Positions 31,124 through 49,774 are shown, numbered from the stretch's first letter. The stretch: DNA of 64,000 nucleotides from Nitrospiraceae bacterium (GCA_919902505.1 CAKKRE010000018.1:1-64000), one strand, 5' to 3'. The notes: generated by a model not told the origin, from the sequence alone. Program-made: numbers and translations.

Positions 31124-33184
31124 TCAGAACGTGGCATTTACTCCGAAGAAGAAGCGCCGACCCGGCTCGGGAAACCCAGGATTCTGCTCGTAGTTGGCGT
31201 CCAACAGGTTCTCGATGGCGATATAGGGCTTGATGCCTTTCCTCACCTCGTAGGACACCTTGGCATTCACCAGAAACAGATTGATCTGGCTGGGCAGTCG
31301 AGTCGGAGGCGAAAAGTCGGCGAATGTGAATGGTGCGCCATTGATGTATGCAAGCTGGACGAACCCGCTGACGCCGATCGGCGCCTGATACATCAAACGA
31401 CTATTGACTTGATGGTAAAAGGTGCTGCCCGGTGCCTGGCCCAGGTTCTCGAAGTCGATATTCGTGTAGGTGTAATCGGCGGAGAGGGAGAACGCCTTCG
31501 TCACTGTCGCAATGATACCGGCTTCGATGCCTTGAGCAAGCAACGACGTCAGATTCTGGTCTTGGGTCTGGTTGCCGGGCAGTTGAGCAAAGCCGATGAC
31601 ATCGTTCAGTTTGTTGCGGAACCAGGTTGCGCTCGCCGTGATGCGCTCACCCCAGAACGACTGTTCGGCGCCGGCCTCGACGGAGAAATTCCGCTCGGGT
31701 TTCAATTGGGGATTGCCGATGCCGCCGAAGAGATTGAGGAGCCGGGGGAGCCGGCTCTTGTCTCCGAGCGCCGCATGCAGTCTCGTGCTGGTGAAGGGTT
31801 GATAGACGACCGACCCCCGAGGGTTCGCGGAGTGGATCGTGCGTCCTCCGCCCGTATACAGCAGGTCATAACTCATCCCGGCGGTCAGCAAGAGGTTCGA
31901 GACCGGCGCATACTCGGTCTCGACGAAGAAATCCGTCGTGAGCGATTCCTGTTGTTCCTGCGTCGCCAGGAGGCGGTCCTCCCGTTTGTGCCGGTCTTGT
32001 TTGATGAAGGTGCCGGCCTTGAGCCGCAGGGTTTTCACGAGGTCCAGCGCCGCCTGCAGGTTGGTTCCATACACGTCGTTGATATCGCGGCTCAGGCCGT
32101 TGGTCTGCGAAAAGGACTGGTCGGGGTAGAAGGCGAGGTCGTTGCTGAAGCGGTCGTAGTAGGCGTTGCCGCGCAGTTCGAGGTTGTTCCACACCGTGGT
32201 GGTGCCGTACAAATCGAGATATTGCCGCTTCCACGTGGGGAACTCGGTGAAGGTGAGGCCCCTGCCCAGCCGCCCGCCGCTTTGGAAATTGGTATTGACC
32301 GGACTGTCCAGGGCGGCGCTGTAATAGCCTGCTTGGAACGCGATGCGATCCTTCGCGCTGAAGTCGTAGCCGAGATTGACCGACAGGTTGCCCTTTTCAT
32401 AGCCGGAGTGTTCCCTGAAATCGGTGGACTGCGCCGGTGTCGGCGTAAAAGATCCCGATAGCGGAAAGCCGTTGCTGAGACGATAACTGCCGGCGATGAA
32501 GTAGTTGAAGCCTCCCTTCGTCCCGCCGTGCTGGAGCCAATAGTCCTGGGTATTGTGCGCTTCATAGGAGGCCGTGATCCTGGTCGTCGGGACGGCGGTC
32601 CCCCGTTTCGTGACGATGTTGATCACCGTGCCTATGGCATTCGGCCCATAGGCGGCATCGACCGGCCCCTTCACGATTTTGATTTTTTCGACGTTGTCGA
32701 TGGGAAGATTGTTGAAGTCCACGTCGCCGAAGAAGGGATCGTAGACGGGGCGTCCATCGATGAACACGATCGTCTGTCTAGCGGTGAGGCCCCGGACGAC
32801 GGCGGACGAGGGATTTTTGCCGCCGCCGATGGAGAGAAAGAGGCCCGGCACGAACCGCAACGCATCCCCCACGTTGCGCGCGTTCTGGTCCAGAATGTCC
32901 TGCGCGCTGATTTCGTAGACGCTGGATGTCGGCCCCAACGGCTGTTCCGACGATGGGACGAGTTCCCCCAGGCGGAAAAGTTCCGCTTGCTGCTCTTCCT
33001 CGATCAACTCCAGCGCTTCTTTGCCCTCCGGCGAAATGGTGAGATCTCCCGGCCTGGCGGAGACGACGGACGACGGACTCGGAGTGGGGGCGGCCGGCAC
33101 CGGCATCGGACAGATTCCTGCCAGGCTGGCCGACAACAGGGCGGCCAACATCGGATGACGGGGTCTTCTTAACTCAGCACGCAT
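31124..33184 (-). CDS. TonB-dependent outer-membrane receptor
   Basis: 686-aa receptor. A signal peptide runs to about PVPAAPTP, followed by a 60-residue extension and the plug (SSVYEISAQDILDQNARNVGDAL, FIDGRPVYDPF, VEKIKIVKGPVDAAYG, GTVINIVTK). The large barrel ends in RRFFFGVNATF. The N-terminal MRAELRRPRHPMLAALL resembles that of the other receptor (HPMLAA shared). No ribosome-binding site is visible at ATG 33184. It is flanked by 56-nt direct repeats. The substrate is unknown; the barrel is only distantly similar to that of the 28222 receptor. Confidence 0.9.
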   Translation of the reverse strand: MRAELRRPRHPMLAALLSASLAGICPMPVPAAPTPSPSSVVSARPGDLTISPEGKEALELIEEEQQAELFRLGELVPSSEQPLGPTSSVYEISAQDILDQNARNVGDALRFVPGLFLSIGGGKNPSSAVVRGLTARQTIVFIDGRPVYDPFFGDVDFNNLPIDNVEKIKIVKGPVDAAYGPNAIGTVINIVTKRGTAVPTTRITASYEAHNTQDYWLQHGGTKGGFNYFIAGSYRLSNGFPLSGSFTPTPAQSTDFREHSGYEKGNLSVNLGYDFSAKDRIAFQAGYYSAALDSPVNTNFQSGGRLGRGLTFTEFPTWKRQYLDLYGTTTVWNNLELRGNAYYDRFSNDLAFYPDQSFSQTNGLSRDINDVYGTNLQAALDLVKTLRLKAGTFIKQDRHKREDRLLATQEQQESLTTDFFVETEYAPVSNLLLTAGMSYDLLYTGGGRTIHSANPRGSVVYQPFTSTRLHAALGDKSRLPRLLNLFGGIGNPQLKPERNFSVEAGAEQSFWGERITASATWFRNKLNDVIGFAQLPGNQTQDQNLTSLLAQGIEAGIIATVTKAFSLSADYTYTNIDFENLGQAPGSTFYHQVNSRLMYQAPIGVSGFVQLAYINGAPFTFADFSPPTRLPSQINLFLVNAKVSYEVRKGIKPYIAIENLLDANYEQNPGFPEPGRRFFFGVNATF

Positions 33185-33823: not shown

Positions 33824-33860
33824 GTATCTATCTAGATACAGGCTGTATGTCTTCAGATAC
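33824..33860. promoter_or_regulatory. tandem GTATC-N6-GATAC sites (pair 1)
   Basis: GTATC-TATCTA-GATAC (33824-33839) and GTATG-TCTTCA-GATAC (33845-33860), 21 bp apart start to start, both followed by AGGC. They overlap the 3' end of the ribbon-helix-helix gene. Confidence 0.55.
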
Positions 33861-34109
33861 AGGCGTTTGAATAGTCTTGTTTGTGCGTGGACGACCTGGC
33901 TTCAAATCTTGAAGCCGTGGCGAAAAAGGGCAGCCGTTTTGCGACTCCAGATTATTGAGGAGATCTTCAATCGCTGATGAAATCAGGCCGGCCATAGTGG
34001 TGCCCGACGTCCAATAGGCGGCATCGCGCATACGTTCCAAGAGCTCGGTCGGTAGGCTGACGGTCATACGTTGGCGTTTCTGGGATCGCAAATAGATAAA
34101 TCGATTCAT
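33828..34109 (-). CDS. ribbon-helix-helix-like protein
   Basis: 93-aa protein from the ATG at 34109, with AAGGAG 8 nt upstream; the frame continues to 34169 but has no better start. Residues about 15-50 (MTVSLPTELLERMRDAAYW, then TTMAGLISSAIEDLL) fit a ribbon-helix-helix DNA-binding domain: a short basic beta-strand followed by two helices. The C-terminal tail is basic and Pro-rich (KPGRPR). It lies 108 nt after the 39-aa membrane protein gene on the same strand, so it may belong to the same sigma-54-driven transcript. It could be an antitoxin-like or transcription factor; no toxin partner is visible. Confidence 0.65.
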   Translation of the reverse strand: MNRFIYLRSQKRQRMTVSLPTELLERMRDAAYWTSGTTMAGLISSAIEDLLNNLESQNGCPFSPRLQDLKPGRPRTNKTIQTPVSEDIQPVSR

Positions 34110-34217
34110 GGTGCCACTCCTTTGCACGAGACTACTGATGTTGAGCGCTTGGCTCGGCGCCTGTGTCATATCGATGCGCGAGTTCGTGGCGCAGGGATAT
34201 GGTCAGTGTCATGAAGT

Positions 34218-34613: not shown

Positions 34614-35345
34614 TCAGGTAGGCAGGTACACTCCGGACTGTTTCAAGAGGTGATGAAGCATTCGCTCCAACGACTGTTTGTCCTCCTCATATGTTATGAG
34701 GTCGAGCAGACAGGCGATGGCGTCGTACCAAAGGCCGGATTCGGAATAGCGATAGATCGCGTCACGATCGCAAGAGGTCCAGGTGCATGGCATGCCCAGC
34801 GAGCAGGCTTCACTATAGGGGATCCGTTCGATGGTTCCGCCTGCGACAATGTCCCGCGAAGGTTCATCCGGGTCCACGACCAGAGTTATGAACCATCGGT
34901 AGGACTCCTGCTCCTTGAATTCAATTCCATATTCCCGAGGCCTGGTACAGTGGATGCCTGCATGAAGAGGTGAGGGGAGCGAGCGTTCAAGAATAGGCCG
35001 AATTCCGCGGGAGTCCACTACTGTAATGGTCATGGCCTGAGCGGTATGCAGAGACAGGTACCAGCAGAGTGACGGATCGCCTTTGATCGTAAAGCCGACA
35101 TGATCCGGGACCAAGGCGATCAGCAGGGGAACACCCGACTCGGCACCCCTGCTCTGCCCGCCGATGCGCGCTCGCGGCGCATGGTCCTTTCGCGGTTTAT
35201 ATAGGGGCATAGGCGAGTCTGGAGCCTTGATGAGGTCGGCCGCGCGACCGTCCGGAAGTGTCGACGCAAACCAGACGGCGCTGCGCCAGGACATCGGCCA
35301 CGCCATGGCAACGACAACCAGCAGGGTGAGTCTGAGGTAGAACAT
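34614..35345 (-). CDS. DUF928 exported protein (copy 2)
   Basis: 243-aa protein with an N-terminal hydrophobic signal (MFYLRLTLLVVVAMAWPM) and a DUF928 domain. Family-like blocks are APRARIGGQSRG, LIALVPDHVGFTIKGDPSLCWYLS, YRWFITLVVDPDEPSRDIVAGGTIERI, and a terminal helical part (GLWYDAIACLLDLI). The upstream gene 35385-36092 is clearly its paralog. DUF928 genes are, from recollection, often found with CHAT proteins and two-partner secretion genes in cyanobacteria, and the same neighbours occur here. The molecular function is unknown; a periplasmic location is inferred. Confidence 0.75.
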   Translation of the reverse strand: MFYLRLTLLVVVAMAWPMSWRSAVWFASTLPDGRAADLIKAPDSPMPLYKPRKDHAPRARIGGQSRGAESGVPLLIALVPDHVGFTIKGDPSLCWYLSLHTAQAMTITVVDSRGIRPILERSLPSPLHAGIHCTRPREYGIEFKEQESYRWFITLVVDPDEPSRDIVAGGTIERIPYSEACSLGMPCTWTSCDRDAIYRYSESGLWYDAIACLLDLITYEEDKQSLERMLHHLLKQSGVYLPT

Positions 35346-35384
35346 CCTGTGCCGATCAGTAGGTGGACGGACTCAGGCAACGTG

Positions 35385-36092
35385 TCAGCGCCGGCCGGCA
35401 TGGGCCTGCGCAAGATCCCATTCGGCCACACCATGCAAACCGACTTGCTTGAGCAAGGCTGCCCGCTGTTTTCGTAGACCCGTATCACCAGGATCGGAGG
35501 TAATGAGATCGCACAGGCAGGCCATGGCATCGTACCAGAAACCCGTGGCGGCACTCGTCCTCACCGCTTCCTGGGTGCAGGTGGTCGTGGCGCCCAACAC
35601 CATACACTCGCTGAACTCACAGCGCTCGATCATTCCGCCGGTCACGATATCGCGTGAGGGAGAGTTCTCGTCTTTGATCACGGAGATATACCACCGGTAT
35701 TGGATGTGTGCCTGAAGCGTGAAGCCGAGATCCTCAAGGTTGACGGCATGAACACCGGCGTGGTTCGGGGGTGCGATGAACCGTTCAACGAGCGCGCGAA
35801 TCGATCGCTCATCGATCAGGGTGAATTTAATCGGCAACGCTGTGTGCTTGGAAAGGAACCAGTTGAGAACCGGATGTTGCTTGACGGTGATGCCGACGTG
35901 GTCGGGAACGAGCGCGGCAATAGCGGGGTCTTCTCCTTCGCTGCCTCTCAACGTCCCACCGATGCGAGCTCTGGGCATCACTTGCTGAGGCGCCTTGTAC
36001 AGCGGAATTTCCAGTTGTACGTCAGTTCCCGCCTCGCCGCTGCTCGCGAGCAGGGCCGCGAGCAGCACCGTTGTGCCTACCTTCACGGCCAT
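35385..36092 (-). CDS. DUF928 exported protein (copy 1)
   Basis: 235-aa paralog of the next gene downstream, sharing MPRARIGGTLRG, IAALVPDHVGITVKQHPVLNWFLSKHTA, YRWYISVIKDENSPSRDIVTGGMIERCE and GFWYDAMACLCDLI. The start is placed at ATG 36092 because the ORF's extra 34 residues back to 36194 are read from a dispersed repeat; from 36092 the protein starts with a clean signal peptide (VGTTVLLAALLASSGEAGT). It follows the CHAT gene in the same direction and is probably in one operon with it. Confidence 0.75.
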   Translation of the reverse strand: MAVKVGTTVLLAALLASSGEAGTDVQLEIPLYKAPQQVMPRARIGGTLRGSEGEDPAIAALVPDHVGITVKQHPVLNWFLSKHTALPIKFTLIDERSIRALVERFIAPPNHAGVHAVNLEDLGFTLQAHIQYRWYISVIKDENSPSRDIVTGGMIERCEFSECMVLGATTTCTQEAVRTSAATGFWYDAMACLCDLITSDPGDTGLRKQRAALLKQVGLHGVAEWDLAQAHAGRR

Positions 36093-36205
36093 GCACAAGC
36101 AACGCCGCAACGAGCGAGGGGGCGAGGCGTACCCTCCAGGGTTCGGTGAGGGCTCGAGCGATGCGAGCGCGCTGCTGACGAACGTGTTTAACATTCTGCT
36201 AGAGC
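36093..36205. repeat. dispersed repeat abutting CHAT stop codon
   Basis: On the minus strand this segment begins at the stop codon of the CHAT gene and runs to the DUF928 start. It is clearly related to 38815-38941 (shared blocks GCGAGGGGGCGAGGC, GAGCGATGCGAG and TTCAACAT/TTTAACAT before TAGAG). It supplies 34 spurious upstream codons to the DUF928 frame. Confidence 0.6.
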
Positions 36206-38511
36206 CAATTGTTCAATAACAGAAATGCCGACCAATACGCCGGATGTTCATAGAGCCGGCCGGACAGTAACTTCAGCTGTGCAATTTGCAAGGCGTGTGC
36301 CTTAGATATCGATGAGTTATGCAATTGGCGATAGAATTCTGATACCAGTTCCGACGACGCTTCATCGTTAATGAACCAGAGGGTTGCGAGGGCACTCCTC
36401 GCTCCGGCTTTCACCGCAATGCCGGCAAGCCCGAGCGCGGCACGGTCGTCGCCGATACCGGTCTGGCAGGCGCTCAACGTGAGGAGTTCCAAGGGATCCT
36501 GGCGAAAGCGAAGCAACCCCACCAGCCGCTCTAACTGCGTCATGGTCAGCCGATCGTCGAACGTCAGCAAGAATGATTGATTCACGTCCGTGGCAAACCG
36601 GCCGTGCGTGGCGATGTGGAGAATGCTGTAGCGGCCGTCCTTCAATTCCCTTTCCAAGCGTGGCGTGACAAAGTTGCGGTCGAGGAGTTGCTCGCCCTTG
36701 AAGAGCGAGTTGAGGTGGGCCATCTCTTCGGCGACGTGCGGGAGAGGAGGAAACCCCTGCACCGCTTGAGTCAAACCGCTGGAGAGCAGGTGAGCGCTGG
36801 TCCGGTTGATGGGGCGAGGGTCAGTCAAATCGAGGCCGGGGGTCATTGCGACGGCGTACTGTGCGATGAGGAATTGGTGGCCGTCATGGAGCGCCGACAT
36901 GGGAATGGTGCGAAGCGGTCCGTCCGGGACAAAGACCAGCGTGTTGACCTTGAGTCTGCGAAGGTCCCCTAGAAGCGGTCGGAGCAACCAGTCATACAAT
37001 TGCTGCGCATGGGGCAGGTACTCGCGGGTCGTCCGCTTTTCAAGCATGCGCCGGAAGCTGCGTATTTCGGCAGTCAGCGCCGACGCCGTCACCGGAACGG
37101 AGTGTCGTCTGAGGCCGTCCGGGAAGCTCACGAGCAGTTCGGTGCGATCGCTGAATATGATCGGGTAAATGATGGCCGTCGCAGGGGACACGGCATCCAG
37201 TTTGGTCAGTCGAGCCTGCATCTGGTCCACGCAATCATCGCGAAAATAATCCCGGAGCTCGGCGGCTTTGTAGGCCTCGATCGCATCGCGCGCCGCTTTT
37301 AGATAGGAGTCGGCCTCAGAGTCCTCTGTCATCAAGGCCGCCCGTTGAAGCAGCAGATCGGCCAATTCGAAATATAGCGAACGAATCGATTGATGGGCAG
37401 GATCCAGCGAGGTGTGCGAACCGAAAGCCACTTCGGCGCGGATCGGTTGCAGGGTGGCCGCCGCTTCTTGATAGGCCGACAATGCGCGATCGAGGTGGCC
37501 CAGACGGGTGAGGAGACGACCACTTTGCCATTGCCACCGGTAGAGCGATTCCGGTGCGCCGGCAGACTGCGCAGCAAAGACGGCTCGCCGGGTGAGTTGG
37601 AGGGCTTCGTCTAAGCGGCGTTCCCCCTCATAGAGATGTCCGAGGTGCCCGTAAGCATAGGAGGCGAGGCGCTTACCGCCGGACTTCTCCGCCATCGCAG
37701 CCGCCTCTTGCAGCAGCGCAGCGGACCGCTTGAGCCAGCGCGCATGCTCATCCGGCTGGTCCGCCGCCAGGTCGCGATACCCTAACGCCAGATTGATGAG
37801 CCCATCGGCCTTGTTGTGGGAACCGGCAGCCGCTGACAGCCGGTTATCGGCCTCACTCAAGGCTGCTGCCGCCTCATCAAATCGTTTCAATTGCATCGCC
37901 ACCCGCGCGGCGTTGACGCGGGCGCGGACGAACAGTATGCGTACATTCTCCTCTGTCGCTCCTGCCGCGCTGTCTTGAAATGCGGCAAGGGCTTCCGGAA
38001 AACGGCCTTGTAACGCCAGGACAATGCCGAGGTCGTTCTGGATCGCCGCCGACAGTGTCTTGAGATTCCCTGTGTGCGCGATCTCTGCAGCTTGTGACAG
38101 ATAGTCCGTAGCGGTGTCGTATTGATGGCTCGTCACATACGTTTTCCCCAACTCAGAGAGGGTGAGCGCCAGCCATTTTGGATCGCCGATTCTACGCGCG
38201 AGTTGCAGGGCCAATTCCTGTTGCAGGAAGGCTTGGTTCACGTGTCCCAATGCTCGTGCTGCATAGGCGGCATGGAAGAGCGCCTGAAGATGTCCCTTCA
38301 CCTGGCCCGCTTGGTCGTATAGTTGCGCGGCTGCCTTCCAATCGACGAGTGCCTGCTCCAAAGCGCCCTGTTCCGCGGCGGAAAGGCCTCGCTGCATCAG
38401 TTCATCGGCCGACGGCGCGGTTTCCGCGGCGGATGCCGCTGTGCCGGAGAGCAGGAGTATGAGCCCGACTCTGAGCACCGGCTGAAGTGAAGCGCGAAGC
38501 CGTGATGCCAT
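36199..38511 (-). CDS. exported TPR-CHAT protease-like protein
   Basis: 770-aa protein. The ATG at 38511 is preceded by AAAGGG with 6-nt spacing and gives a clean signal peptide (VLRVGLILLLSGTAASAAE); the frame continues to 38628 inside a repeat. Residues about 30-420 are tetratricopeptide-like helical repeats. The C-terminal 300 residues are a CHAT (caspase-HetF-associated) domain with the catalytic His in HIATHGRF (about residue 632) and Cys in LTLSACQTGIGDD (about 679), followed by GLAGIAVKAGARSALATLW. Both catalytic residues are present. The signal peptide implies periplasmic action, unlike TPR-CHAT proteins of phage defence. It sits between a TpsB/TpsA pair and two DUF928 genes. Confidence 0.88.
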   Translation of the reverse strand: MASRLRASLQPVLRVGLILLLSGTAASAAETAPSADELMQRGLSAAEQGALEQALVDWKAAAQLYDQAGQVKGHLQALFHAAYAARALGHVNQAFLQQELALQLARRIGDPKWLALTLSELGKTYVTSHQYDTATDYLSQAAEIAHTGNLKTLSAAIQNDLGIVLALQGRFPEALAAFQDSAAGATEENVRILFVRARVNAARVAMQLKRFDEAAAALSEADNRLSAAAGSHNKADGLINLALGYRDLAADQPDEHARWLKRSAALLQEAAAMAEKSGGKRLASYAYGHLGHLYEGERRLDEALQLTRRAVFAAQSAGAPESLYRWQWQSGRLLTRLGHLDRALSAYQEAAATLQPIRAEVAFGSHTSLDPAHQSIRSLYFELADLLLQRAALMTEDSEADSYLKAARDAIEAYKAAELRDYFRDDCVDQMQARLTKLDAVSPATAIIYPIIFSDRTELLVSFPDGLRRHSVPVTASALTAEIRSFRRMLEKRTTREYLPHAQQLYDWLLRPLLGDLRRLKVNTLVFVPDGPLRTIPMSALHDGHQFLIAQYAVAMTPGLDLTDPRPINRTSAHLLSSGLTQAVQGFPPLPHVAEEMAHLNSLFKGEQLLDRNFVTPRLERELKDGRYSILHIATHGRFATDVNQSFLLTFDDRLTMTQLERLVGLLRFRQDPLELLTLSACQTGIGDDRAALGLAGIAVKAGARSALATLWFINDEASSELVSEFYRQLHNSSISKAHALQIAQLKLLSGRLYEHPAYWSAFLLLNNWL

Positions 38512-38616
38512 GTCATGCCCTTTCTGCCGCAGTCGTCTCGTTTCGTGGATTGCGGAAACCCCTATTCGCCACCTCCGAACACCCAATGTTGAGTTGAAAG
38601 TGACATCGAGAAAGCT

Positions 38617-38814
38617 CCTAGCCCGCATTATTCATGAGCGCTTCTGCTGCAATCGCCGATCCGCTGCTGCGACGAGCCTTCGGCCGACGGGCTCACCCCT
38701 CGGCCCCTCGACGTACTGTACGAGTACGCCTCGGGCCCTCACGGCTCCGCGCGCCGGTCTCGCGACGTGGCTCGACGATTTCGCGACGAACCGTCATGAA
38801 TAATGCGGGCTAGG
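38617..38814. repeat. 198-bp palindromic element with 21-bp inverted ends
   Basis: Perfect 21-bp terminal inverted repeats (38617-38637, starting CCTAGCCCGCATTATT, and 38794-38814). The interior contains no ORF of note but is GC-rich and partly self-complementary (GTACTGTACGAGTAC near 38710-38725). A half-copy of the end lies at 44460-44480 (19 of 21 positions match). It resembles a MITE or other non-autonomous palindromic element. Confidence 0.75.
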
Positions 38815-38941
38815 ATGGTCAAAAAGGTCGTCCAGCAAGGCCGCAGCGATGCGAGGGGGCGAGGCTGTACCCTTGCGGTACGTTGAGCCCCTGAGCGATG
38901 CGAGAACAAAGCTGGCGGACTTTTTCAACATCCTATTAGAG
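38815..38941. repeat. dispersed repeat abutting TpsB stop codon
   Basis: Directly next to the 198-bp element and ending at the tpsB stop codon. It is related to 36093-36205, which in the same way ends at the CHAT stop codon. The pattern suggests insertion or recruitment of the repeat at gene 3' ends. Confidence 0.6.
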
Positions 38942-40696
38942 TACCTGCACGACGAGTTGGAGATGGATACCATGATCCTGCATGTTGCCCTCGCCGCCCC
39001 GGACGTGATTGAGTTGCTGGCCCCAGTAGACTTCGAAGCGTGCACGTTCCTGGGGCAGAATGGTCCAGCGTAACCCGACTCCCACGCTCGCCAACGTGTG
39101 AGGATCAGGGGTATTCCCTTTGGCGTTCCAGGCCCGTCCGAAATCGACGAATTGTGCGAACTGCAGCCGGTCCTCGCCAGATGCGAACCGGAGGAGGGGC
39201 ACGCGCGATTCAAGTGACGCGAGCACCGCATCGTCCCGCACGAGGGTGTTTTCCCGATAGCCGCGCACGCTGAAGCGTCCGCCGACGGGCATTTGTTCGA
39301 GTGGAAAGAGCCGGTCGTTGGCGATCTGCGCGGCCACGCGTCCCAACAACTGGATGCCCCACCATTCTTCTATCCGTTTGACCGCCTGGGCTTGACCCAA
39401 CCAGGAAACAAATTGACCGTCCGGCAGAGGCCCGTTGTTGACGGTGGCGCCCAGGACGTTCAGTCCGACGCTGAAACGGGACAAGACGGCAAACACATAG
39501 GATGGAGATCGATGCGTATATTCCTGGCTGAATCGGAGTGCGCTGACGGTGGCCACCCCGGTCGTGGAAGAACCAGGAATGAAGAGCGACGGCAGCCCCG
39601 GAACGTCGAACGCAGACGTCGTCTTCAAATATAAATGTTCGCCGCTCAGAGAGAGTGCGACCTCGTCGCTCACGGTACGGTACACAGGTTGGCGTACCGC
39701 GATCCCGATGACTTCGGAGTCCACATTCAGATCCAAGGCGCGAAAAGGATTCTCGACGACCAGAAAAGCATTGCGCCGATAGTAGGCCGTGAAGGTCGTC
39801 TCGTAGGCGTTGAGCGGCACACTATAGGACGTATCGATGATGGGGTTCACGCCGTGCGAACGCCCGTAGGTAAACACAAATTGGTCGCCGTGACCCGTCA
39901 CATTCTGGTGCGCCACTGTCGCCAGGCCGCGCTCAGCGCCGACCACCGGTGTTTGATAGTTGTTGAACTCCAGCCAGGCCTTGAAGGGGTTGGCGTCTTT
40001 GACCCGCAGATTCAAGACGCTTTCGCCACGAACGTCTCCCGGTCTCAGCTCGGTATTGATCCGTTCGATGCGCGGATCCTGCTGCAGCAGTTGGATCCGT
40101 TCCTGGAGAGGCTGGATGCTGACGGGAGTGCCAATGCCGCGCGCCACACGATTCCGTAAGTACGAACTGCGGAACCATTGGTTGCCTTCGACGTCGATTC
40201 GGGTGAGGGTGCCTTCGACGATCTGAATCACGATGGTCCCGAAGGTGACATCTTGATCGGGAATGACGGCTCCGGAGGTGAGATACCCTTTATTCACGTA
40301 CAAGAGGGTGAGGGCCAGGCGAACCCGCTCCAGATCTTCCGTGGTCAGTTCACGATTGCGATAGGGAGCGATGACGTCAGCGAGCTCTGCGTCAGAAAAC
40401 ACGGTACTGCCGGTGACGTGGATGTCATGGACGAACACACGAACGGATCCCAATCTGTTCTCGAACGGCTTCTGCGGGGCGGGTGACACCTCCGGAAGGA
40501 TGGGGCTTGGGGGCGGTGTTTCCGGTGCTTTGAACTCTTCCCTCAACGGAGCAGGCGGTTTCCCCGACCGGCCGGTCGGGTCAAAAATAGGAGGAAGCGG
40601 CGGTGCAATTTGTGCTGTGGCTGAAACTCCCAGGAGGCAGATGCTCATCGTAATGCCTATGCACACAGATCGGATATGAAAGATCCCACAATGCAA
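38936..40696 (-). CDS. TpsB outer-membrane transporter (ShlB/FhaC family)
   Basis: 586-aa two-partner secretion pore. The start is a TTG at 40696 with AGGGAG 6 nt upstream; an in-frame ATG at 40648 is the alternative. A signal peptide ends near ATAQIAPP and a Pro-rich linker follows. Then come POTRA-type domains (VFVHDIHVTGSTVFSDAELAD; GTLTRIDVEGNQWFRSSYLR) and a 16-strand barrel with the FhaC-type VRGYRENTL motif, ending in LQLVVQVL. It would secrete TpsA, encoded immediately upstream on the same strand (38-nt gap). Confidence 0.9.
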   Translation of the reverse strand: MHCGIFHIRSVCIGITMSICLLGVSATAQIAPPLPPIFDPTGRSGKPPAPLREEFKAPETPPPSPILPEVSPAPQKPFENRLGSVRVFVHDIHVTGSTVFSDAELADVIAPYRNRELTTEDLERVRLALTLLYVNKGYLTSGAVIPDQDVTFGTIVIQIVEGTLTRIDVEGNQWFRSSYLRNRVARGIGTPVSIQPLQERIQLLQQDPRIERINTELRPGDVRGESVLNLRVKDANPFKAWLEFNNYQTPVVGAERGLATVAHQNVTGHGDQFVFTYGRSHGVNPIIDTSYSVPLNAYETTFTAYYRRNAFLVVENPFRALDLNVDSEVIGIAVRQPVYRTVSDEVALSLSGEHLYLKTTSAFDVPGLPSLFIPGSSTTGVATVSALRFSQEYTHRSPSYVFAVLSRFSVGLNVLGATVNNGPLPDGQFVSWLGQAQAVKRIEEWWGIQLLGRVAAQIANDRLFPLEQMPVGGRFSVRGYRENTLVRDDAVLASLESRVPLLRFASGEDRLQFAQFVDFGRAWNAKGNTPDPHTLASVGVGLRWTILPQERARFEVYWGQQLNHVRGGEGNMQDHGIHLQLVVQVL

Positions 40697-40734
40697 TTCG
40701 GCTCCCTCTTCGCCTGCGTGCGAGGCTCACAAGG

Positions 40735-43700
40735 TCAGGAGCGACAATCTGCCGGCCAGTCACGGGCACCGAGTTGTGGTAACGGCCCGAGCTGATCGAC
40801 CAGTTGTTCTGAACGTATCTGCGTCTGATGCGCAGACTCAAACGTGGGCATCTGTGCCGATTGGGTGGGGCCTTCGTCGGCAAACATCAGGGGGCTCATG
40901 AGCCAGCCGCCCGGTTCCGCAGGCAGGGCATCCCTTCCCGCGATCACGAGACTGCTCAATTGTCCGCCGGCCTGCGCCGCACAGCGTTGTCGCAAGAGCT
41001 GTTGCCCTTGTAGCGGTTGTTGCGGCAGGGTGGCTAAGCTGCCGCTCAAACTGGACACGGGCGATTGAATGTTCACGGCACCGCTCAAGCCGAATTGTGA
41101 CGAGGCACTGATGACACTTGTCGGATCGGCCAGGAATGTCCCCGCGATAATGTTGATGTTGCCGCCTCGGCCCTGTACGGCTTGGGCGAGGATGTGACTG
41201 TTCTGGAGGGTCACGACTGCCGGATCGATCGTGATATTCCCGCCGGATGTATCGGGGCCGCCCAGAACCGAAGTGCTGAGTCGACCGTTGATGAATCGGA
41301 TCGAATCGATCGCCTGAATAACGATGTCGCCGCCGCTCGCCTGGTTGGCTTCCGTCGTGATGGACGCATTTTGAGCGAGGAATCGAGGCCCGGAATTGAT
41401 GGTCATGCTGCCGGCATTACCAAGTCCCGTGCTGCTGGCGGAAATGAATGCGCCGTCGCTCACGGTGACGGATTGAGCCGCGCTCAGCGAGACGTTGCCG
41501 CCGCTCCGAGTTCCTCTGGTAAGGGCGGAAATTCCACCACCCTCCATCAAGATATTTCCAGCGGATAGATCGATATTGCCGCTCTGTTCCTGGCCGTTCA
41601 CCGACTGCGGCCGTAAATCCGTCACATTGGCGGATATATTCGTGTTGCGCAGTTCCATCGGGCCCCTTGCGCGCATCTCAATTCTGCCTCCGAGACCGAT
41701 GTTGCTCGTGTCCGTCAACACATCGGTTCCTGTCAGGCGGATGGTAGACGAAGGCGGGTAGGGGACACCGTCAGGAATGGGGCCACTGACGCCGGTGATA
41801 CTGATCATACCCGCGCCGCCGGTGCTGCCACTGCTGCTGGAAATGACCACTCTGGACGGATCGGCGACATCCAGTATCCTGGGTGCCGCAAGCGTCCCTC
41901 CTGGTCTGGTTCCAGGTCTGGTGGTCAACACATCCGAGTGCAGCTCAATGCGGTTGGCAATCCGATTCCCTTGCGTGGGGGCAATGATCCCTCCTCCGGT
42001 GATGTCCAAGTTCTTCGCAGACATGAGCAGGCTGCCCTGGACGCTCCGGCCGTCCGTGACAACCGTGCCCCCCTCCCCCGCGCCCACGACATCGATCAAC
42101 CGGCCCTGGGAATCCAGGACGTTCGTCACATTGTTCACTTGTGAGTTCACGACGGAATGGTCGAGGATGATATTGTCGCCTCTGATTCTGAGATACCCCG
42201 GCAACCCTTCGTGCAGCGCTTCGACCGTGACCTCCGAATTGGTCAACTTCACCGTATCGGTGGGAGCATCCGGGTACGGGGCATCCCACACAGCACCGAA
42301 TGAAAAATAGTGATCCTTGATGATCTTCGTGATGCCGGCCTGAGCCCGTCCATGTCCCGTATTCGTGATGAGGGAGTTGTCGGCTGTGAAGGAATGTTCG
42401 GCCCGCAACCAGATCTCGCCTGCACTCGGGCCGCCCTGACAGAGCGGGCACGACCCAATGTCCGATACCTCGGCATTGGCCTTGATGGTACTGTCTTTCA
42501 AGCCAATGTCCCGACCCATGATATCGATGCGGCTGAAGCCCTGGTTTTGCGCGGGTTGCCCATTGGGTTTATTATCGTTGATGGTGAAGTCTTGGGTCGT
42601 GACCGATACGCCGGAATCGATCAACGAGGCCTGCCCGTTCGTCCTCATCATCACGATCCCACCCGGCGCATTGCCGATGGCGTCGGAATGGATATCCGTG
42701 CCCCGTAAGTCAAACTCTCGTGCGAAATAATAGGTAATGGCTCTGTTGGGCTCCGAATCAGGGGCGGTGACGTGTCTGTACAGTCGCGTACTCGGAGGGG
42801 TGAAGCCTGGAATACCTTGAAGAGTAATATAGCCGGCCTGTCCCCCGACACATTGGCCGCCGCAGTGACTATCGCTTGAAATCAGGACGCGCCCGTCCGG
42901 ACCGGATTGGGTTTTCAGGGTATCCACATTCAGCGTGATCGCCCCGGCATCCGCTCCGCCTGTGGTGTCTGCCCGTACGGCGGTCCCGTTTGCCAACTCA
43001 ACTCGTTGGGCCGTCATGGCAATGTTTCCGGGAACGACCGTTGGGTCGACGGCCTTGGTGACGCCTGTAATAATATGGGTATGGCTCAGTAACACCGCGT
43101 CAGCCGGCCCTCCTGTTTTTCCTGCGATGCTAATAGTTCCGGCTCCGCCCCGGCCGGTACTGGTGCTCGCAATGGTCACCGGCGCGGCGCCGCTGAGCGG
43201 AGTGCCATCGACGCTGACATTGCTTCGCAGGGTGTCCACCTCAAAGCTGATATTCCCTGCCGTTCCGTCGATCGCGGAGGTGAGGATATTCGAGTCGTGC
43301 AACAGCGACACCGTATCCGCTTGGATAGAGAGCCCCCCTGCTGTCGAGGTGGAAGGTGTGGCATTCGGGACGGTCGCTGTCGCGCTCGCCTCAAGGCGGG
43401 CGTTCTCCATGGTGAATTGCCCACTGCGGATTACGATGCGCCCTGCGGTAGGTGCGCTCGTATGAACATCGGCTCCTTGAGCGAGTGAAATAGTTCCGAG
43501 TGATGTAAACCCGTTCAACGTTGGGTCGGTGGGCGTCGCCGCCGCCGCATTCGTCAACACCTCGCCGGCCGAGGCGACCGCGACAAGGTTGATCGGCCCG
43601 CCGGGGGCTAAAAGCTGGGCCGGTTGGATTGCGGTATGTGCGAGGGTTCCTCCTTGAACGGTAATGTTGCCTCCCACCAACGAGATGCCTTGCCCTTCCG

Positions 43701-44409
43701 CGACCGCGAGTTGCCCGCCTTGCACGGTGATGGCGCCGGGGTTCGAGCCCAAAAACCCAAACGCGGCCACCGGCGCGCTGGAGATGGCCGCATCCTGCAG
43801 CCCGGCAATCGCGTTGAACCTCGCCCCATCTGTCAAACGCAGATAATCAGCGGTGGTGAAGCTCACCGATCCCCCGACATTCAGAACCGCATTCGGCCCA
43901 AAGACGATCCCGGCTGGATTCATCAGGAACACATTGGCATTGCCGAAACCGGTGGTTTGGAGGGTGCCGAAGATGTTGGAGGGATTGCCGCTCGTCACAC
44001 GGCCGAGAATATTGGAGGTGGCGAGGCCGGAGTCGTTGAGAAAATTGGCGATGTTGTTGGTCGGAACGCTAAACTCTCCGAAGCTATGGAACAGATTGGT
44101 CCCCGCTCGTGTTCCGGCGGTGATGTCATATTGCAGGGAGTTTCCGGAAGACTTGCTGATGTGGGTATTCAGTCCTGAGGATGTGATCGGCGGGGTGACT
44201 TGAGCGTGACTCGTGTCCGGCAGGCAGAGAGGAATCAGCCACCAGCAGGCGAACATGGTCGCGCATACACAGGGCAGCCGAGTTGCGCCCACGGCCAAGA
44301 GTCTGCTGCCCCCCATCATTTTCATGGCAATTGTGCATCTCAGGTGCAAGCGCTCAGGATCCGCAACTGTCTCCCCGGCCCATTTCCGCACGGTGCAGGG
44401 CGACTCCAT
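40735..44409 (-). CDS. TpsA filamentous-hemagglutinin-like exoprotein
   Basis: 1224-aa secreted beta-helix protein. The annotated start at 44409 has GAGG 9 nt upstream; ATG 44325 would give 1196 aa and a shorter signal region (hydrophobic core near CVCATMFACWWLIPLCL). Residues about 70-200 are the TPS secretion domain (NLFHSFGEFSVPTNN, ILGRVTSG, MNPAGIVFGPNA, FTTADYL). The rest is Gly/Ser/Thr-rich repeats with many GNI, GGN and SG turns. The C-terminal part contains a Cys and SSLVIAGRDALPAEPGG, a tail style seen in cyanobacterial TpsA proteins. It is probably a surface adhesin or large exoprotein; the neighbouring CHAT protein could process it, which is an inference. Confidence 0.88.
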   Translation of the reverse strand: MESPCTVRKWAGETVADPERLHLRCTIAMKMMGGSRLLAVGATRLPCVCATMFACWWLIPLCLPDTSHAQVTPPITSSGLNTHISKSSGNSLQYDITAGTRAGTNLFHSFGEFSVPTNNIANFLNDSGLATSNILGRVTSGNPSNIFGTLQTTGFGNANVFLMNPAGIVFGPNAVLNVGGSVSFTTADYLRLTDGARFNAIAGLQDAAISSAPVAAFGFLGSNPGAITVQGGQLAVAEGQGISLVGGNITVQGGTLAHTAIQPAQLLAPGGPINLVAVASAGEVLTNAAAATPTDPTLNGFTSLGTISLAQGADVHTSAPTAGRIVIRSGQFTMENARLEASATATVPNATPSTSTAGGLSIQADTVSLLHDSNILTSAIDGTAGNISFEVDTLRSNVSVDGTPLSGAAPVTIASTSTGRGGAGTISIAGKTGGPADAVLLSHTHIITGVTKAVDPTVVPGNIAMTAQRVELANGTAVRADTTGGADAGAITLNVDTLKTQSGPDGRVLISSDSHCGGQCVGGQAGYITLQGIPGFTPPSTRLYRHVTAPDSEPNRAITYYFAREFDLRGTDIHSDAIGNAPGGIVMMRTNGQASLIDSGVSVTTQDFTINDNKPNGQPAQNQGFSRIDIMGRDIGLKDSTIKANAEVSDIGSCPLCQGGPSAGEIWLRAEHSFTADNSLITNTGHGRAQAGITKIIKDHYFSFGAVWDAPYPDAPTDTVKLTNSEVTVEALHEGLPGYLRIRGDNIILDHSVVNSQVNNVTNVLDSQGRLIDVVGAGEGGTVVTDGRSVQGSLLMSAKNLDITGGGIIAPTQGNRIANRIELHSDVLTTRPGTRPGGTLAAPRILDVADPSRVVISSSSGSTGGAGMISITGVSGPIPDGVPYPPSSTIRLTGTDVLTDTSNIGLGGRIEMRARGPMELRNTNISANVTDLRPQSVNGQEQSGNIDLSAGNILMEGGGISALTRGTRSGGNVSLSAAQSVTVSDGAFISASSTGLGNAGSMTINSGPRFLAQNASITTEANQASGGDIVIQAIDSIRFINGRLSTSVLGGPDTSGGNITIDPAVVTLQNSHILAQAVQGRGGNINIIAGTFLADPTSVISASSQFGLSGAVNIQSPVSSLSGSLATLPQQPLQGQQLLRQRCAAQAGGQLSSLVIAGRDALPAEPGGWLMSPLMFADEGPTQSAQMPTFESAHQTQIRSEQLVDQLGPLPQLGARDWPADCRS

Positions 44410-45537: not shown

Positions 45538-46923
45538 TCAGTAGTTGAACCGCAACGACAGCGAGCCGACATGCACCATGCTGTCGTATCGGCCATTGAC
45601 GGTTGGGTTTTGGTTGTCTGCGATGGTGCGTACTTCATACAGACCCGCTTGATACGCGAGATCGATGGCGAACAATTTCGGCTTCAGCGGGCCGATGCCC
45701 AGTTCGCCGCAACGCACCAGCCCGAGGAACGAACCGTTTTCATGGCAGGCCAACCCGATTCCGACGGACGGAATGTGGGTATTGGCTGAGGGGACTCCCG
45801 GATTAAATGTGCGATCGGGTATTTGAGCCTGCTGGTTCATGTAGCCGGCCCGAAGAGCAATGTCCCAATCCGGCATCGAGGCCAGGCGTAGCCATCGGTA
45901 TTCGGTGCCGATCATGACGGTGTAGGTGCTCTGCCAATTTTGCGGAAACGGCAACAGGGCGCCGTTCGTCAAATGGACATCGAGGTTCCGGTTGGATTTC
46001 CATCCGGTGTAGTCCACGTCGAATTCCAGCTTCCACTCGCGCTCGGACGTACGAACCGGCCAGATGCCGATGCCGCCGGAGAAGACCTGCGGCAGCACGA
46101 AGGTGGCTGTAGCGCCGGCGACTGAGGTGCCGTTGGCGAGAAAGTTGCCGGTGAGATGGAGAGTGGCTTGACTGCGATAGACCATGCCGATGTTGACGAG
46201 CGGTTTTCCGTCGCTGTTGCGAAAGGGGGTGTACAGGAGGCTGACGTTAAACCCTGCCGTGGTGTCGCTTCCGTTGATCTCCATCAGGGAGCCGGCCGGG
46301 ATGCCCAGCCCGCCTGGCCAGATGGATTTCTGTTCGAGATGGCCTTCTCCGAAGAGCCCGGAAAAGGTGTAAATATCCGCGCCCAACCCGAACGAGAGCT
46401 GATCGTTCAGTTTGTAGGCGATGGTGGGTTTGATGTCGAGCAACGGCAAGGTGGTAAAGGTGATGGCGGTGCGAAACGGCCCATCGTTCGGGTATCTAGT
46501 CAAGGAACCGAACGGATTGTTCAATCCGATCCCGGCGGTGAAGTTCCCGAGTGCCGACAGTCCGAGGTCCTTGAGGTTCGCGACCAGGTACACGTGCCCG
46601 GGAGGAGGCCAGGCCACGCTTCCGTTGCGATCGCCTGTCGCTTGTGCACCGGTCGGACTCGTAAACTGGGTGGTGCCGCCGATCAGCGTGGTTCCGAACA
46701 GGGTTTGGAACCCATGCAGTTGTGTCATGCCGGCGGGGTTGTAATGGAGCGCGGAAGGGTCATCGGCCTGAGCGACGAAGGCGTTCCCCATGGCGGCGGC
46801 GGCAGCGGACTGGCCCTGGAGCCGTGGGGTTTGGGCGTGTGCGGCTGCTGTGAAGGTGACCCCGGCGGCCGAAACCAAGAGACAGAGAAGCAGGGCGCGG
46901 CGGAATCGCTGAGCGAGAGGCAT
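45538..46923 (-). CDS. OmpP1/FadL-family outer-membrane protein
   Basis: 461-aa outer-membrane barrel of the OmpP1/FadL/TodX family. A signal peptide ends near AAHAQTPRL, then the FadL signature (GQSAAAAAMGNAFVAQADDPSALHYNPAGM). A 14-strand barrel follows and the C-terminus is aromatic (SLSLRFNY). FadL-type barrels import hydrophobic molecules such as fatty acids or aromatics; the substrate here is unknown. It begins 4 nt after the stop of the hybrid kinase gene, so it is co-expressed with the kinase. Confidence 0.88.
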   Translation of the reverse strand: MPLAQRFRRALLLCLLVSAAGVTFTAAAHAQTPRLQGQSAAAAAMGNAFVAQADDPSALHYNPAGMTQLHGFQTLFGTTLIGGTTQFTSPTGAQATGDRNGSVAWPPPGHVYLVANLKDLGLSALGNFTAGIGLNNPFGSLTRYPNDGPFRTAITFTTLPLLDIKPTIAYKLNDQLSFGLGADIYTFSGLFGEGHLEQKSIWPGGLGIPAGSLMEINGSDTTAGFNVSLLYTPFRNSDGKPLVNIGMVYRSQATLHLTGNFLANGTSVAGATATFVLPQVFSGGIGIWPVRTSEREWKLEFDVDYTGWKSNRNLDVHLTNGALLPFPQNWQSTYTVMIGTEYRWLRLASMPDWDIALRAGYMNQQAQIPDRTFNPGVPSANTHIPSVGIGLACHENGSFLGLVRCGELGIGPLKPKLFAIDLAYQAGLYEVRTIADNQNPTVNGRYDSMVHVGSLSLRFNY

Positions 46924-46927
46924 AGGG

Positions 46928-49630
46928 TTACCGTCCTATTGGAGACTCGGATTTGCCGGAGCCGGCGATGAACCAACGATCGACGATGTGCCGCAGCCTG
47001 GTTCCATCGAAGGGCTTCAGTAGGTAATCTTGAGCGCCGGATTCCACTGCCGCCATGGCGCGATCCAGCGCCTCCACGGCCGTCATCATGACCACCGGCA
47101 ACGTGGGGTGAGTGGGACGCAACTGTCGCAGGACTTCAAACCCGTCCAATTCCGGCAGGGCGATATCAAGCAACACGCCATCGACCGTCGTCTCCGCCAG
47201 CATACGTAATGCGGCTCGACCGTCCGCCGCGGTGCAGACATGAACGCCTTCCGCCTCCAAACGATCCCGCAGCAGGTCGCAAATGTCAGGATCGTCGTCG
47301 ACGACCAGCACGCTCCGGCGAACGGCGGGGGCTGGTTCGCGCGAATGCAGGGGGAGGGTGAAGATAAACTCCGTGCCCTGATCCACCTCGCTACGAACCG
47401 TGATGCTGCCGCCGTGCAGATCGACCAAATCCTTGACGATCGCCAACCCGAGTCCCAATCCTTTGGTCTGGCCTCGCTCCTCCTGTTGCACGCGGAAGAA
47501 CGGATCGAAGAGTTTGGGAAGCGCATCCGGGGGAATGCCTTGGCCGTTATCGCGGATGACGGTCCGAGCCATCTCGTGCGCATCGACCGAAAGCTCCACC
47601 CAGACGTGTCCCCCGTCGGGAGTGTACTTGATAGCATTATCCAATAAATTCGTCAAAATCTGGCTGAGCCGGTCTTGATCCGCCCACACCGGCAGTTCGG
47701 GATCCGGGCTCTGAAGTTCGATATTGAGGTGCTTGGTGATAGCCAGCGGCAGGAGTTGTTCGATGACGTCGCTCACAAGCGTCGGAAGACAAACCTGTTC
47801 GAAGGAGAGTACGAGTTTGCCGGCTTCGACACGCGAGAGGTCCAGCAGGTCGGTGATCATGCGGGCGAGTCTGGTGCCGTTGGCTTTGATGCGGGTGAGG
47901 TACTGCTCCTGCTTCATGTTGAGTGAACCGACGAGTCCCTCGAGCATATTGTCCGCGAAGCCGACGATGCTGGTGAGCGGCGTTCGAAGCTCGTGGGACA
48001 CGTGGGCAAGAAATTTCGATTTGAGCCGATCCATCTGCTTGAGTTGCGCGTTGGCGGCTTCCAACTCCGCCGTCCGCTCGCGCACGCGCGCCTCCAGGCC
48101 GGCATTCAACGATTCGATTTCACGATAGGCCTGGGCATTGTCCAGCGCGATGGCGACCTGGCTGGCGAGGGTGACCAGGACATCGAGATCGTCTTGGGTC
48201 AGAGCTTGATTGTGCGTGCGGTCGACCGAGAGAGAGCCGATGACGGCATCTTGTGTCTTGAGTGGAACGGTAATGAACGATTTCACATTCACCATCGCGA
48301 TCAATTTTTGATCGAACGGGTGCAGTCGGTCCCAGATTTCGTGAATGTTGTTCGTCAGCACGGGCTCGCCACGCAGGAACACGGTCCCTTCCACACTGTC
48401 GGGGTCGGAGACGGGCACTTCCTGCGTCCGCAGAAAATCCGCGACCTCCTGCGGCATGCCGCGCACACGAAAATCGTGCGACACGTTTCTGGTGCGATCG
48501 AACTGCGTGATCATGGCGCGGTCGTAGTGCAATTCACGGACGATCGTGTCCAGCACATTGGTGAGCAGCTCTTCCCGGTCGAAGGTCGAACTGAACAACA
48601 GTCCCGCGCGGTGCAGTGTCGTCAGATCATTGATTTTTCGTCGCAAGGTGACGGCGGTACTTTGTTGTTCGAGGTAGGCCTCGCGCAATTCCTCATGCCG
48701 CGCATCGACGGCCTGCTCCTGATCCTTGATCAACCGTTGCAGCGGTTTGGCGGCTTGGCGCATGTGATTGGTGATCATCCACCACAACAGTGACGCTGGA
48801 ACCGCTGCGAGCCCCAGCGCTTCGATCGTCGGCACGTCAGGCCGGCGGAGATGCAGGTAGGTGAAGGTGCCTCCTGCGACGAGCATCCACATGGCGAGCG
48901 GCACGGCACTACGGACCTGCGGCGTCCACGTGAATTCCCATTCACAATAGGGATCGCCGTTGGCGGTGCAGGAGAGGTCTCTGACCGTGGCGGCCGGTGT
49001 GCCGTGCATTTGTGTCTGTACCCGCGCGATGCTGCTCTTGCAAGAGAGGCAGATCACATCCACGCACCGCTTCCGGTAGGGACCGAATTGCACCAGGGCC
49101 CGATCGGTGAAGGTCATGCGGAGGACAGCCGACCGTCTGGTCACCCGGCCGACCTCGAACTCCAGCACGCCTCGAACGTACTTGCTGCCGAAATAGGGCC
49201 ACATTTTGTAGAGCTGCGGGGTCGAAAACGGGCGACAGAGGATTTGAATCAGAGGGGGGACTTTCCTTTCCGTTCCGACATTCACGTGAAACTGGGGATC
49301 TCCGGACAACTGTTCGCAGAACTCTCTGAGGTAACAGACGAATTCGTACGAGTAACTATTCCAGATATTGCGAAGCGAGTCGGGGGTGACGTGGTAGGTG
49401 CGGTCAGGAAGGCGGGCGTTGAGTAATCGACACAGCTCATCCAGCGCCTCACGGGCAGCGTTCTCCCCACTGGTGCGACTGAGATAATCGTGGAGATAGT
49501 CTACGTTGGATTGAACGATGACCCCGCTGATGTCGCAGATCTTTTCGCCCTGGTCGTTGAGGCCGAAGGGGCGAAACTCCATGAACGGTCGTTCGAGAAT
49601 GGAGTGTTCTTTGGAGAGAAGGTCGGTCAT
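46928..49630 (-). CDS. hybrid histidine kinase, V4R-like sensor, TM, GAF, HisKA, REC
   Basis: 900-aa hybrid kinase. The N-terminal 235 residues form a sensor region ending in a Cys-rich CTANGDPYCEWEFTW block, similar to heme-NO/4-vinyl-reductase-type domains; ligand unknown. Two membrane helices (about residues 240-285) follow, then a GAF domain, HisKA (SHELRTPLTSIVG), HATPase (NLLDNAIKYTPDGG, DNGQGIPP, KGLGLGLAIVK) and a C-terminal receiver (VDDDPD, phospho-Asp in LLDIALPE). It is coupled to the OmpP1 gene by a 4-nt gap, so it may regulate or sense molecules imported by that porin. Confidence 0.87.
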   Translation of the reverse strand: MTDLLSKEHSILERPFMEFRPFGLNDQGEKICDISGVIVQSNVDYLHDYLSRTSGENAAREALDELCRLLNARLPDRTYHVTPDSLRNIWNSYSYEFVCYLREFCEQLSGDPQFHVNVGTERKVPPLIQILCRPFSTPQLYKMWPYFGSKYVRGVLEFEVGRVTRRSAVLRMTFTDRALVQFGPYRKRCVDVICLSCKSSIARVQTQMHGTPAATVRDLSCTANGDPYCEWEFTWTPQVRSAVPLAMWMLVAGGTFTYLHLRRPDVPTIEALGLAAVPASLLWWMITNHMRQAAKPLQRLIKDQEQAVDARHEELREAYLEQQSTAVTLRRKINDLTTLHRAGLLFSSTFDREELLTNVLDTIVRELHYDRAMITQFDRTRNVSHDFRVRGMPQEVADFLRTQEVPVSDPDSVEGTVFLRGEPVLTNNIHEIWDRLHPFDQKLIAMVNVKSFITVPLKTQDAVIGSLSVDRTHNQALTQDDLDVLVTLASQVAIALDNAQAYREIESLNAGLEARVRERTAELEAANAQLKQMDRLKSKFLAHVSHELRTPLTSIVGFADNMLEGLVGSLNMKQEQYLTRIKANGTRLARMITDLLDLSRVEAGKLVLSFEQVCLPTLVSDVIEQLLPLAITKHLNIELQSPDPELPVWADQDRLSQILTNLLDNAIKYTPDGGHVWVELSVDAHEMARTVIRDNGQGIPPDALPKLFDPFFRVQQEERGQTKGLGLGLAIVKDLVDLHGGSITVRSEVDQGTEFIFTLPLHSREPAPAVRRSVLVVDDDPDICDLLRDRLEAEGVHVCTAADGRAALRMLAETTVDGVLLDIALPELDGFEVLRQLRPTHPTLPVVMMTAVEALDRAMAAVESGAQDYLLKPFDGTRLRHIVDRWFIAGSGKSESPIGR

Positions 49631-49774
49631 ACGGAAGCCGCCCGATTCGGTCGATGCCGCGTGACGGAGGAGTGCCCAGGCGGCCAGATCATAACGTACC
49701 TGTTCTCGGGAGGCGAGGCCCTCCGTGCAGCGTGGCGTCTGTCGGCGTGTGCCTGGTTGTCCTGCTGTGGCCCG

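Follow-up and report, generated by a model that had tools for sequence, protein, structure and literature searches.

Genes for a two-partner secretion (TPS) exoprotein (TpsA), its transporter (TpsB), a TPR-CHAT protein and DUF928 proteins form a neighbourhood in Nitrospirota that did not arise by chance. We give an even chance to the proposal that this cluster uses an operon-encoded clan CD protease to gate whether a surface adhesin is retained or released, resembling LapG and CdrA in its working but built from unrelated parts. A wider proposal is put forward tentatively, as something short of an even prospect: a widespread envelope system of Nitrospirota and Cyanobacteria, comprising a tailed TPS exoprotein, a periplasmic TPR-CHAT protease, an adaptor of the DUF928/MtxA type and a CHASE2 or ABC_sub_bind/histidine kinase sensor, that would gate adhesin retention. 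No description of such a system was found in the papers searched, and no paper there joins DUF928, the CHAT domain and two-partner secretion; subscription journals lay outside the scope of the search. The system is broader than first described, and the most informative additions to the original prediction, which was made from the DNA alone, are the C-terminal tail of TpsA, the domain fusions and the link between DUF928 and MtxA.

Proteases of the caspase/separase class, to which CHAT belongs, are otherwise discussed as cytoplasmic and are tied to defence or cell death. According to a 2017 review, the proteases that mature TpsA proteins are apparently not encoded in TPS operons (PMC5422565). 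The cluster described here apparently encodes a maturation-type protease of the caspase/separase class within a TPS operon. If the proposal is true, it would give DUF928 (perhaps also MtxA) a first functional context and supply DUF928 and secreted CHAT proteins with a testable function. It would also point to what CHASE2 sensors may do and would place a caspase-like enzyme outside the cytoplasm as a regulator of surface proteins in bacteria. For Nitrospira, whose members are key nitrifiers living in flocs and biofilms, it is relevant to how attachment might be controlled. With the domain fusions and the conserved tail to work from, direct tests of the idea are feasible in tractable cyanobacteria.

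Organization of the locus

The window is a 64,000-nucleotide stretch of contig C18 of a 4.24-Mb Nitrospiraceae genome, for which Candidatus Nitrospira defluvii is the closest named relative; the first DUF928 protein of the window is 88% identical to its counterpart in that organism. The five genes originally placed on one strand are all present on the minus strand and are supported by Pfam. They belong to a same-strand run with the following features.

40735-44409, minus: TpsA, FHA-like exoprotein of 1224 residues, predicted to be exported (Pfam PF05860, 129.4 bits; NCBIfam adhes_NPXG, 77 bits)
40738-40983, minus: C-terminal tail of TpsA, CAAQAGGQLSSLVIAGRDALPAEPGGWLMSPL, then a variable linker and ADCRS (conserved across CHAT-linked TpsAs)
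38936-40696, minus: TpsB, Omp85-type outer-membrane transporter (ShlB PF03865, 95.8 bits; POTRA_2 PF08479, 81.7 bits)
36199-38628, minus: TPR-CHAT protein, predicted periplasmic clan CD protease (Pfam PF12770, 187.4 bits)
35385-36194, minus: DUF928 protein 1, predicted to be periplasmic (Pfam PF06051, 116.8 bits; cut-off 26)
34614-35345, minus: DUF928 protein 2, paralogue (Pfam PF06051, 84.5 bits; cut-off 26)
33828-34169, minus: small RHH-like protein, possible local regulator (RHH_5/RHH_3 below cut-off; synteny)
31124-33184, minus: TonB-dependent receptor (Pfam; synteny, kept downstream across the genus Nitrospira)
28222-30285, minus: TonB-dependent receptor (Pfam; synteny, kept downstream across the genus Nitrospira)
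25031-28153, minus: response regulator with several PAS domains (Pfam; synteny)
24005-24973, minus: ABC_sub_bind-type binding protein with a hydrophobic N-terminal segment (Pfam PF04392, 113.9 bits; synteny)
21690-24008, minus: HAMP-GAF histidine kinase with an N-terminal membrane segment (Pfam; synteny)
18696-21446, minus: response regulator-PAS-GAF-histidine kinase hybrid, closing the same-strand run (Pfam)

TpsA consists of a TPS domain (residues 80-317), a repetitive remainder and a C-terminal tail with two cysteines. Its gene is separated by 38 bp from that of TpsB, which carries POTRA_2 and a ShlB barrel and would export TpsA. The two DUF928 proteins share 40% identity in an alignment. 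The gap between tpsB and the CHAT gene is occupied by 319 bp of repeats (38616-38934) that are missing in N. defluvii. Two elements abut here: a MITE-like repeat of ~196 bp with inverted ends TCCTAGCCCGCATTATTCATGA, with about 30 genomic copies, and a repeat of ~123 bp with about 10. Their insertion may affect co-transcription across the gap.

The TPR-CHAT protein

A TPR solenoid is followed by a CHAT domain whose catalytic dyad is formed by His675 (HIATHG) and Cys721 (SACQTG), and the protein is predicted to be a caspase-like (clan CD) peptidase. The dyad and the signal peptide were both part of the original prediction. Both residues are present, are invariant in an alignment of 22 window-type homologues (22/22) and are intact in 61 of the 62 CHATs of a wider alignment; loss of these residues in close homologues had been set beforehand as a refutation test. 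The lone exception is a CHAT paralogue in genome G042 (L116:2408-6130), with HIASRG and SATET in place of the motifs; it lies in tandem with an intact copy and is a natural pseudo-protease.

Signal peptides were assigned by visual inspection and with a crude criterion that asks for a hydrophobic stretch, a basic n-region and an AxA-like site, and the signal peptide of the TPR-CHAT protein was recognized in this way. Its likely start is Met40 of the open reading frame (38511), giving MASRLRASLQPVLRVGLILLLSGTAASA-AE, as in the 770-residue N. defluvii protein. Applied to 58 CHATs and 63 DUF928 proteins, the crude criterion was positive for 44 and 52, respectively; it does not score the second DUF928 protein of the window, the N-terminus of which is hydrophobic. 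From its signal peptide, the TPR-CHAT protein is probably periplasmic.

In the AlphaFold model of the TPR-CHAT protein the TPR part is good and the CHAT half is mostly poor (pLDDT of about 30-40 over residues 596-756). A reading of the S1 pocket was dropped because the model of this half is too poor. Foldseek aligned the model over its full length with Craspase Csx29/TPR-CHAT (8eey_B, 7zoq_A and 7xsq_B) and with separase. The matches listed by VIA-align were taken up by TPR-only chains; that Craspase was not among them is no evidence against the likeness. At the sequence level, no match was found between CHAT and PDB peptidases. The window protein shares with Craspase Csx29 the architecture of a TPR solenoid joined to a CHAT protease, but Csx29 occurs in the cytoplasm in a complex with gRAMP/Cas7-11, whereas the window protein has a signal peptide and is encoded beside TPS genes; a local Pfam scan recognized no Cas family among the window proteins that it covered.

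Conservation in Nitrospirota

The listed matches to CHAT, TPS and DUF928 were compared across 101 Nitrospirota genomes, which belong to the same order and are mutually related, so that p-values have descriptive value only; broken contigs depress the co-occurrence counts. CHATs of 740-940 residues, the size of the window protein, were classed as secreted-size (short), and a CHAT gene was counted as TPS-linked when within 15 kb of a TPS gene. By these measures, a TPS gene accompanies 67 of 78 window-size CHATs but only 4 of 58 longer ones, and 52 of 67 DUF928 matches lie near a window-size CHAT. A lack of co-conservation in other genomes had also been set beforehand as a refutation test; CHAT, TPS and DUF928 proved strongly co-conserved. 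Both TPS and a short CHAT are present in 49 genomes, TPS alone in eight, CHAT alone in one and neither in 43. About one third of the TPS genes lie far from every CHAT.

Loci across Nitrospira, and in relatives beyond the genus, preserve the order TpsA, TpsB, CHAT and DUF928, the last as a single gene or a pair. The core is usually followed on its 3' side by an RHH-like gene, none to two TonB-dependent receptors, the response regulator with PAS domains, ABC_sub_bind and the HAMP-GAF kinase; the last three follow in this order in nearly all loci on a sufficiently long contig. A second TPS-CHAT locus of the window genome (contig C16, 86524-90141; L058) has the order TpsB, TpsA (446 residues) and CHAT. 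Loci of this type are found throughout the genus and have the two-cysteine tail and no DUF928.

Cyanobacterial loci and domain fusions

Since the Nitrospirota genomes are related, the independent support for this linkage comes from its recurrence in cyanobacteria, where the sample consisted of plasmids. Similar combinations had been expected there, and the same parts do recur. Among 12 plasmid loci found by DUF928 alone, a separate CHAT is present in ten, CHASE2 in ten and TpsA in six; among ten found by CHAT, eight have TpsA, in one case as a fusion. In Nostoc TCL26-01, CHAT and DUF928 occur with CHASE2 and with no TPS gene within 9 kb.

Several of the parts are joined in single open reading frames. 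A TPS-TPR-CHAT fusion is encoded on plasmid pREC3 of Acaryochloris (L122), and a TPS-CHAT fusion with intact His and Cys is encoded in genome G086 (L104), immediately downstream of TpsB. Two Calothrix plasmids (L053 and L056) carry a POTRA-TPR-CHAT fusion; as POTRA is a periplasmic module of the transporter, this arrangement puts the protease on the periplasmic side of the transporter. CHAT-CHASE2 fusions are found in Nostoc ATCC 53789 (L049:9466-11817) and Brasilonema (L052:9335-11662). These lie immediately upstream of DUF928 genes on plasmids, and their CHAT part has degenerate motifs (GHS and SCD/SCN) and is predicted to be cytoplasmic. On A. marina pREC3, DUF928 and the TPS-TPR-CHAT gene are followed by two genes for toxin-activating lysine-acyltransferases and one for a calcium-binding (RTX-like) protein; from this gene context, CHAT and DUF928 may serve further large exoproteins too.

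In a tree of CHAT sequences, those of Nitrospirota form one group, with nearly all of the plasmid-borne cyanobacterial sequences outside it. The exception is a long-branch Nitrospirota sequence (L077, not TPS-linked) that joins a long-branch cyanobacterial one. With plasmid-only cyanobacterial sampling, the tree contains no sign of recent transfer, and the ancient transfer to which the cyanobacterial combinations had seemed to point is unsupported by it.

The C-terminal tail of TpsA

A two-cysteine tail that appears to be undescribed ends most CHAT-linked TpsAs. It consists of a cysteine, a motif resembling SSF(V)xGRxxLPxxP, a variable linker and a second cysteine close to the C-terminus, the cysteines being about 80 residues apart. 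In Nitrospira it reads RCAA..G..SS(F/L)VVAGRDxLPxEPGGWLxSP, followed by about 45-60 variable residues and a terminal GCxS. Most of the cyanobacterial plasmid TpsAs that were checked have Cx..SSFTVTGRGGLPxSP and then a cysteine near the end.

Among complete Nitrospirota TpsAs, the tail is present in 49 of 51 that are linked to CHAT versus five of 13 that are not. The two CHAT-linked TpsAs without it are a frameshift fragment and the TPS-CHAT fusion itself. One tail-bearing unlinked TpsA comes from G040, a genome that lacks secreted-size CHATs; unlinked TpsAs that have their own TpsB and no CHAT differ at the C-terminal end.

The GRD/GRG core is conserved within the genus. Within the GR motif, the basic position is occupied by arginine in almost every member of the genus and at the paralogous locus, and by Lys, Ser, Ala, His or Gln in other lineages. 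Because this position varies beyond the genus, the family as a whole gives no support to a single arginine cleavage site, and cleavage at a fixed arginine (GR|D/G) is not proposed. The comparison of tails that had been suggested yielded a conserved tail and no common arginine site.

The tail is a candidate for both a periplasm-retained anchor and the target of the protease. Of the two roles first suggested for the cluster, the processing of a surface protein or self/non-self recognition, the former, in the sense of processing or retention, is the one that we favour from co-conservation, the kept catalytic residues and the conserved tail. Features of the CdiA type are missing: the tail is conserved rather than polymorphic, Pfam and NCBIfam gave no toxin domain in TpsA and no immunity gene was recognized, so that nothing found here points to self/non-self recognition.

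DUF928, MtxA and the sensor genes

AlphaFold2, run on 32 sequences, gave a confident β-sandwich with C-terminal helices (Ig-like and TPR-like). The best structural match to the model of DUF928 protein 1 is the C-terminal domain of MtxA (PDB entry 4Z29; Foldseek E value of 6e-6). VIA-align superimposed the model on 4z29_B with a Z-score of 10.6 and an r.m.s.d. of 4.7 over 159 residues, covering both domains; the runners-up cover the Ig-like part only, mostly with Z-scores of 8-9 (the next being 9.2). Two DUF928 profiles gave no match to PDB chains, leaving sequence similarity to MtxA undetected.

MtxA of Magnetospirillum has a signal peptide and consists of Ig and TPR parts, and the next gene downstream encodes a CHASE2 adenylate cyclase (PMC4439547). 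A signal peptide and the two-domain fold, predicted in the case of DUF928, are features of both; DUF928 has a CHASE2 neighbour in ten of 12 cyanobacterial plasmid loci and in other Nitrospirota. The two differ in that MtxA is reported in a magnetotaxis context and has no known association with TPS or CHAT. A relationship between DUF928 and MtxA, based on agreement in predicted fold and in type of neighbour and with sequence similarity undetectable, is probable rather than established.

In a different family of the same order, and likewise at a second locus of genome G030, the cluster contains CHASE2 or has it nearby. CHASE2 is directly beside CHAT in G030, G074, G084, G087 and G098 and 12-20 kb away in G081, G086, G089 and G094. 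No CHASE2 cyclase or kinase gene was found at the window locus. With ABC_sub_bind and histidine kinases in Nitrospiraceae and CHASE2 elsewhere, the core module appears to be paired with alternative envelope sensors.

Proposed mechanism and alternatives

In the proposed mechanism, TpsB would thread TpsA outwards, N-terminus first. The tail, with a cysteine at each end and possibly closed by a disulfide, would remain in or behind the TpsB pore and tether the exoprotein. The secreted TPR-CHAT protein would use its TPR solenoid to recognize the tail on the periplasmic side and would then cut it, by which TpsA would be released or matured. DUF928 might serve as an adaptor or as an inhibitor, linking the protease to a sensor of the envelope. 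For cyanobacteria and other Nitrospirota, this sensor would be a cyclase or kinase with CHASE2; for Nitrospira, it would be the downstream relay of ABC_sub_bind and histidine kinase.

The precedent is LapG, a periplasmic cysteine protease that cleaves CdrA, a TpsA protein, in its periplasmic tail (PMC5422565, PMC4694147). In the CdrAB-LapG-LapD system of Pseudomonas aeruginosa, too, a TPS adhesin has its C-terminal tail in the periplasm, where a cysteine protease under the control of an inner-membrane sensor determines whether the adhesin remains cell-attached (PMC5422565, PMC4694147), although for the window the corresponding locations are predicted ones. LapG is transglutaminase-like, whereas the window protease is of the CHAT/clan CD type, and the place of the c-di-GMP receptor LapD would be taken by DUF928 with CHASE2 or with ABC_sub_bind and a histidine kinase. 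Pfam scans of the window neighbours gave no GGDEF or EAL domain of a LapD-type receptor, and the window system falls outside the Lap family.

HMW1 and HxuA have a disulfide-bearing C-terminal anchor that is kept in the periplasm (PMC5422565). Their cysteine pair is likewise C-terminal and is presumed to keep TpsA in the pore of TpsB, but it closes a short loop, whereas about 80 residues around the SSF..GR..LP..P motif lie between the cysteines here. To our knowledge, HMW1 has no dedicated in-operon protease. FhaB/FhaC of Bordetella, with SphB1 and DegP, also involves a TPS exoprotein with a processed C-terminal part; its proteases belong to other families and are encoded outside the fhaB/fhaC locus (PMC5422565), and its prodomain is of another kind.

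Several observations count against the proposed mechanism: the five tail-bearing unlinked TpsAs, the TPS genes far from CHAT, the catalytically dead G042 paralogue, the Nostoc TCL26-01 locus without a TPS gene nearby, the wide cysteine spacing compared with HMW1, the variable residue of the GR motif and the low confidence of the CHAT model.

The dead paralogue would suit a role in chaperoning and quality control, in which the TPR part keeps TpsA competent for secretion and stalled TpsA is removed by the protease, regulated release playing no part. The POTRA-TPR-CHAT fusions, which set the TPR beside the transporter entrance, the linkage of secreted-size CHAT to TPS and the precedent of DegP for FhaB and HMW1 (PMC5422565) agree with this explanation as well. 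It leaves unexplained the conserved tail of CHAT-linked TpsAs and the conserved sensor genes, and we consider it unlikely.

The two TonB-dependent receptors that follow the cluster in Nitrospira, and the TonB receptor and ABC transporter genes that flank a Calothrix locus (L124), raise the possibility of iron or nutrient piracy, with TpsA as a binder of the type known from HxuABC (PMC5422565) and with CHAT and DUF928 merely maturing it. Such receptors are absent beside several related loci (L034, L035, L043 and L045) and were not seen in cyanobacterial loci other than that of Calothrix, which makes this explanation improbable.

PorU, also of clan CD, attaches T9SS cargo at the cell surface. 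By analogy, CHAT could cut the tail of TpsA and join the resulting end to an acceptor on the surface, as would suit an operon-linked clan CD enzyme, a C-terminal signature on the substrate and the GRD/GRG core conserved in the genus; with CHAT predicted to be periplasmic, whereas PorU works at the cell surface, and with no genes for a sugar acceptor recognized, the chance of this is slight. Equally slight is that of an envelope stress or death switch, in which CHAT would be a sensor-controlled killer protease and TpsA a surface sensor rather than a substrate: the Craspase relatives among the Foldseek neighbours belong to defence, and CHASE2 and two-component sensors occur nearby, with CHAT fused to CHASE2 in places, but the protease, having a signal peptide, would not be cytoplasmic, the tail and the linkage to TpsB are left unexplained and no toxin or immunity gene was recognized.

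Other genes of the window

Upstream of tpsA on the same strand (45538-51556) are genes for a FadL-type channel, a GAF-histidine kinase-response regulator and a RoxA-like cytochrome c; the FadL and kinase genes are likewise upstream in N. defluvii (L024). In the region 52495-56009, a gene for a radical SAM protein with a PCP_red domain adjoins one for a universal stress protein that has three PCP_red domains and a rubredoxin-like domain.
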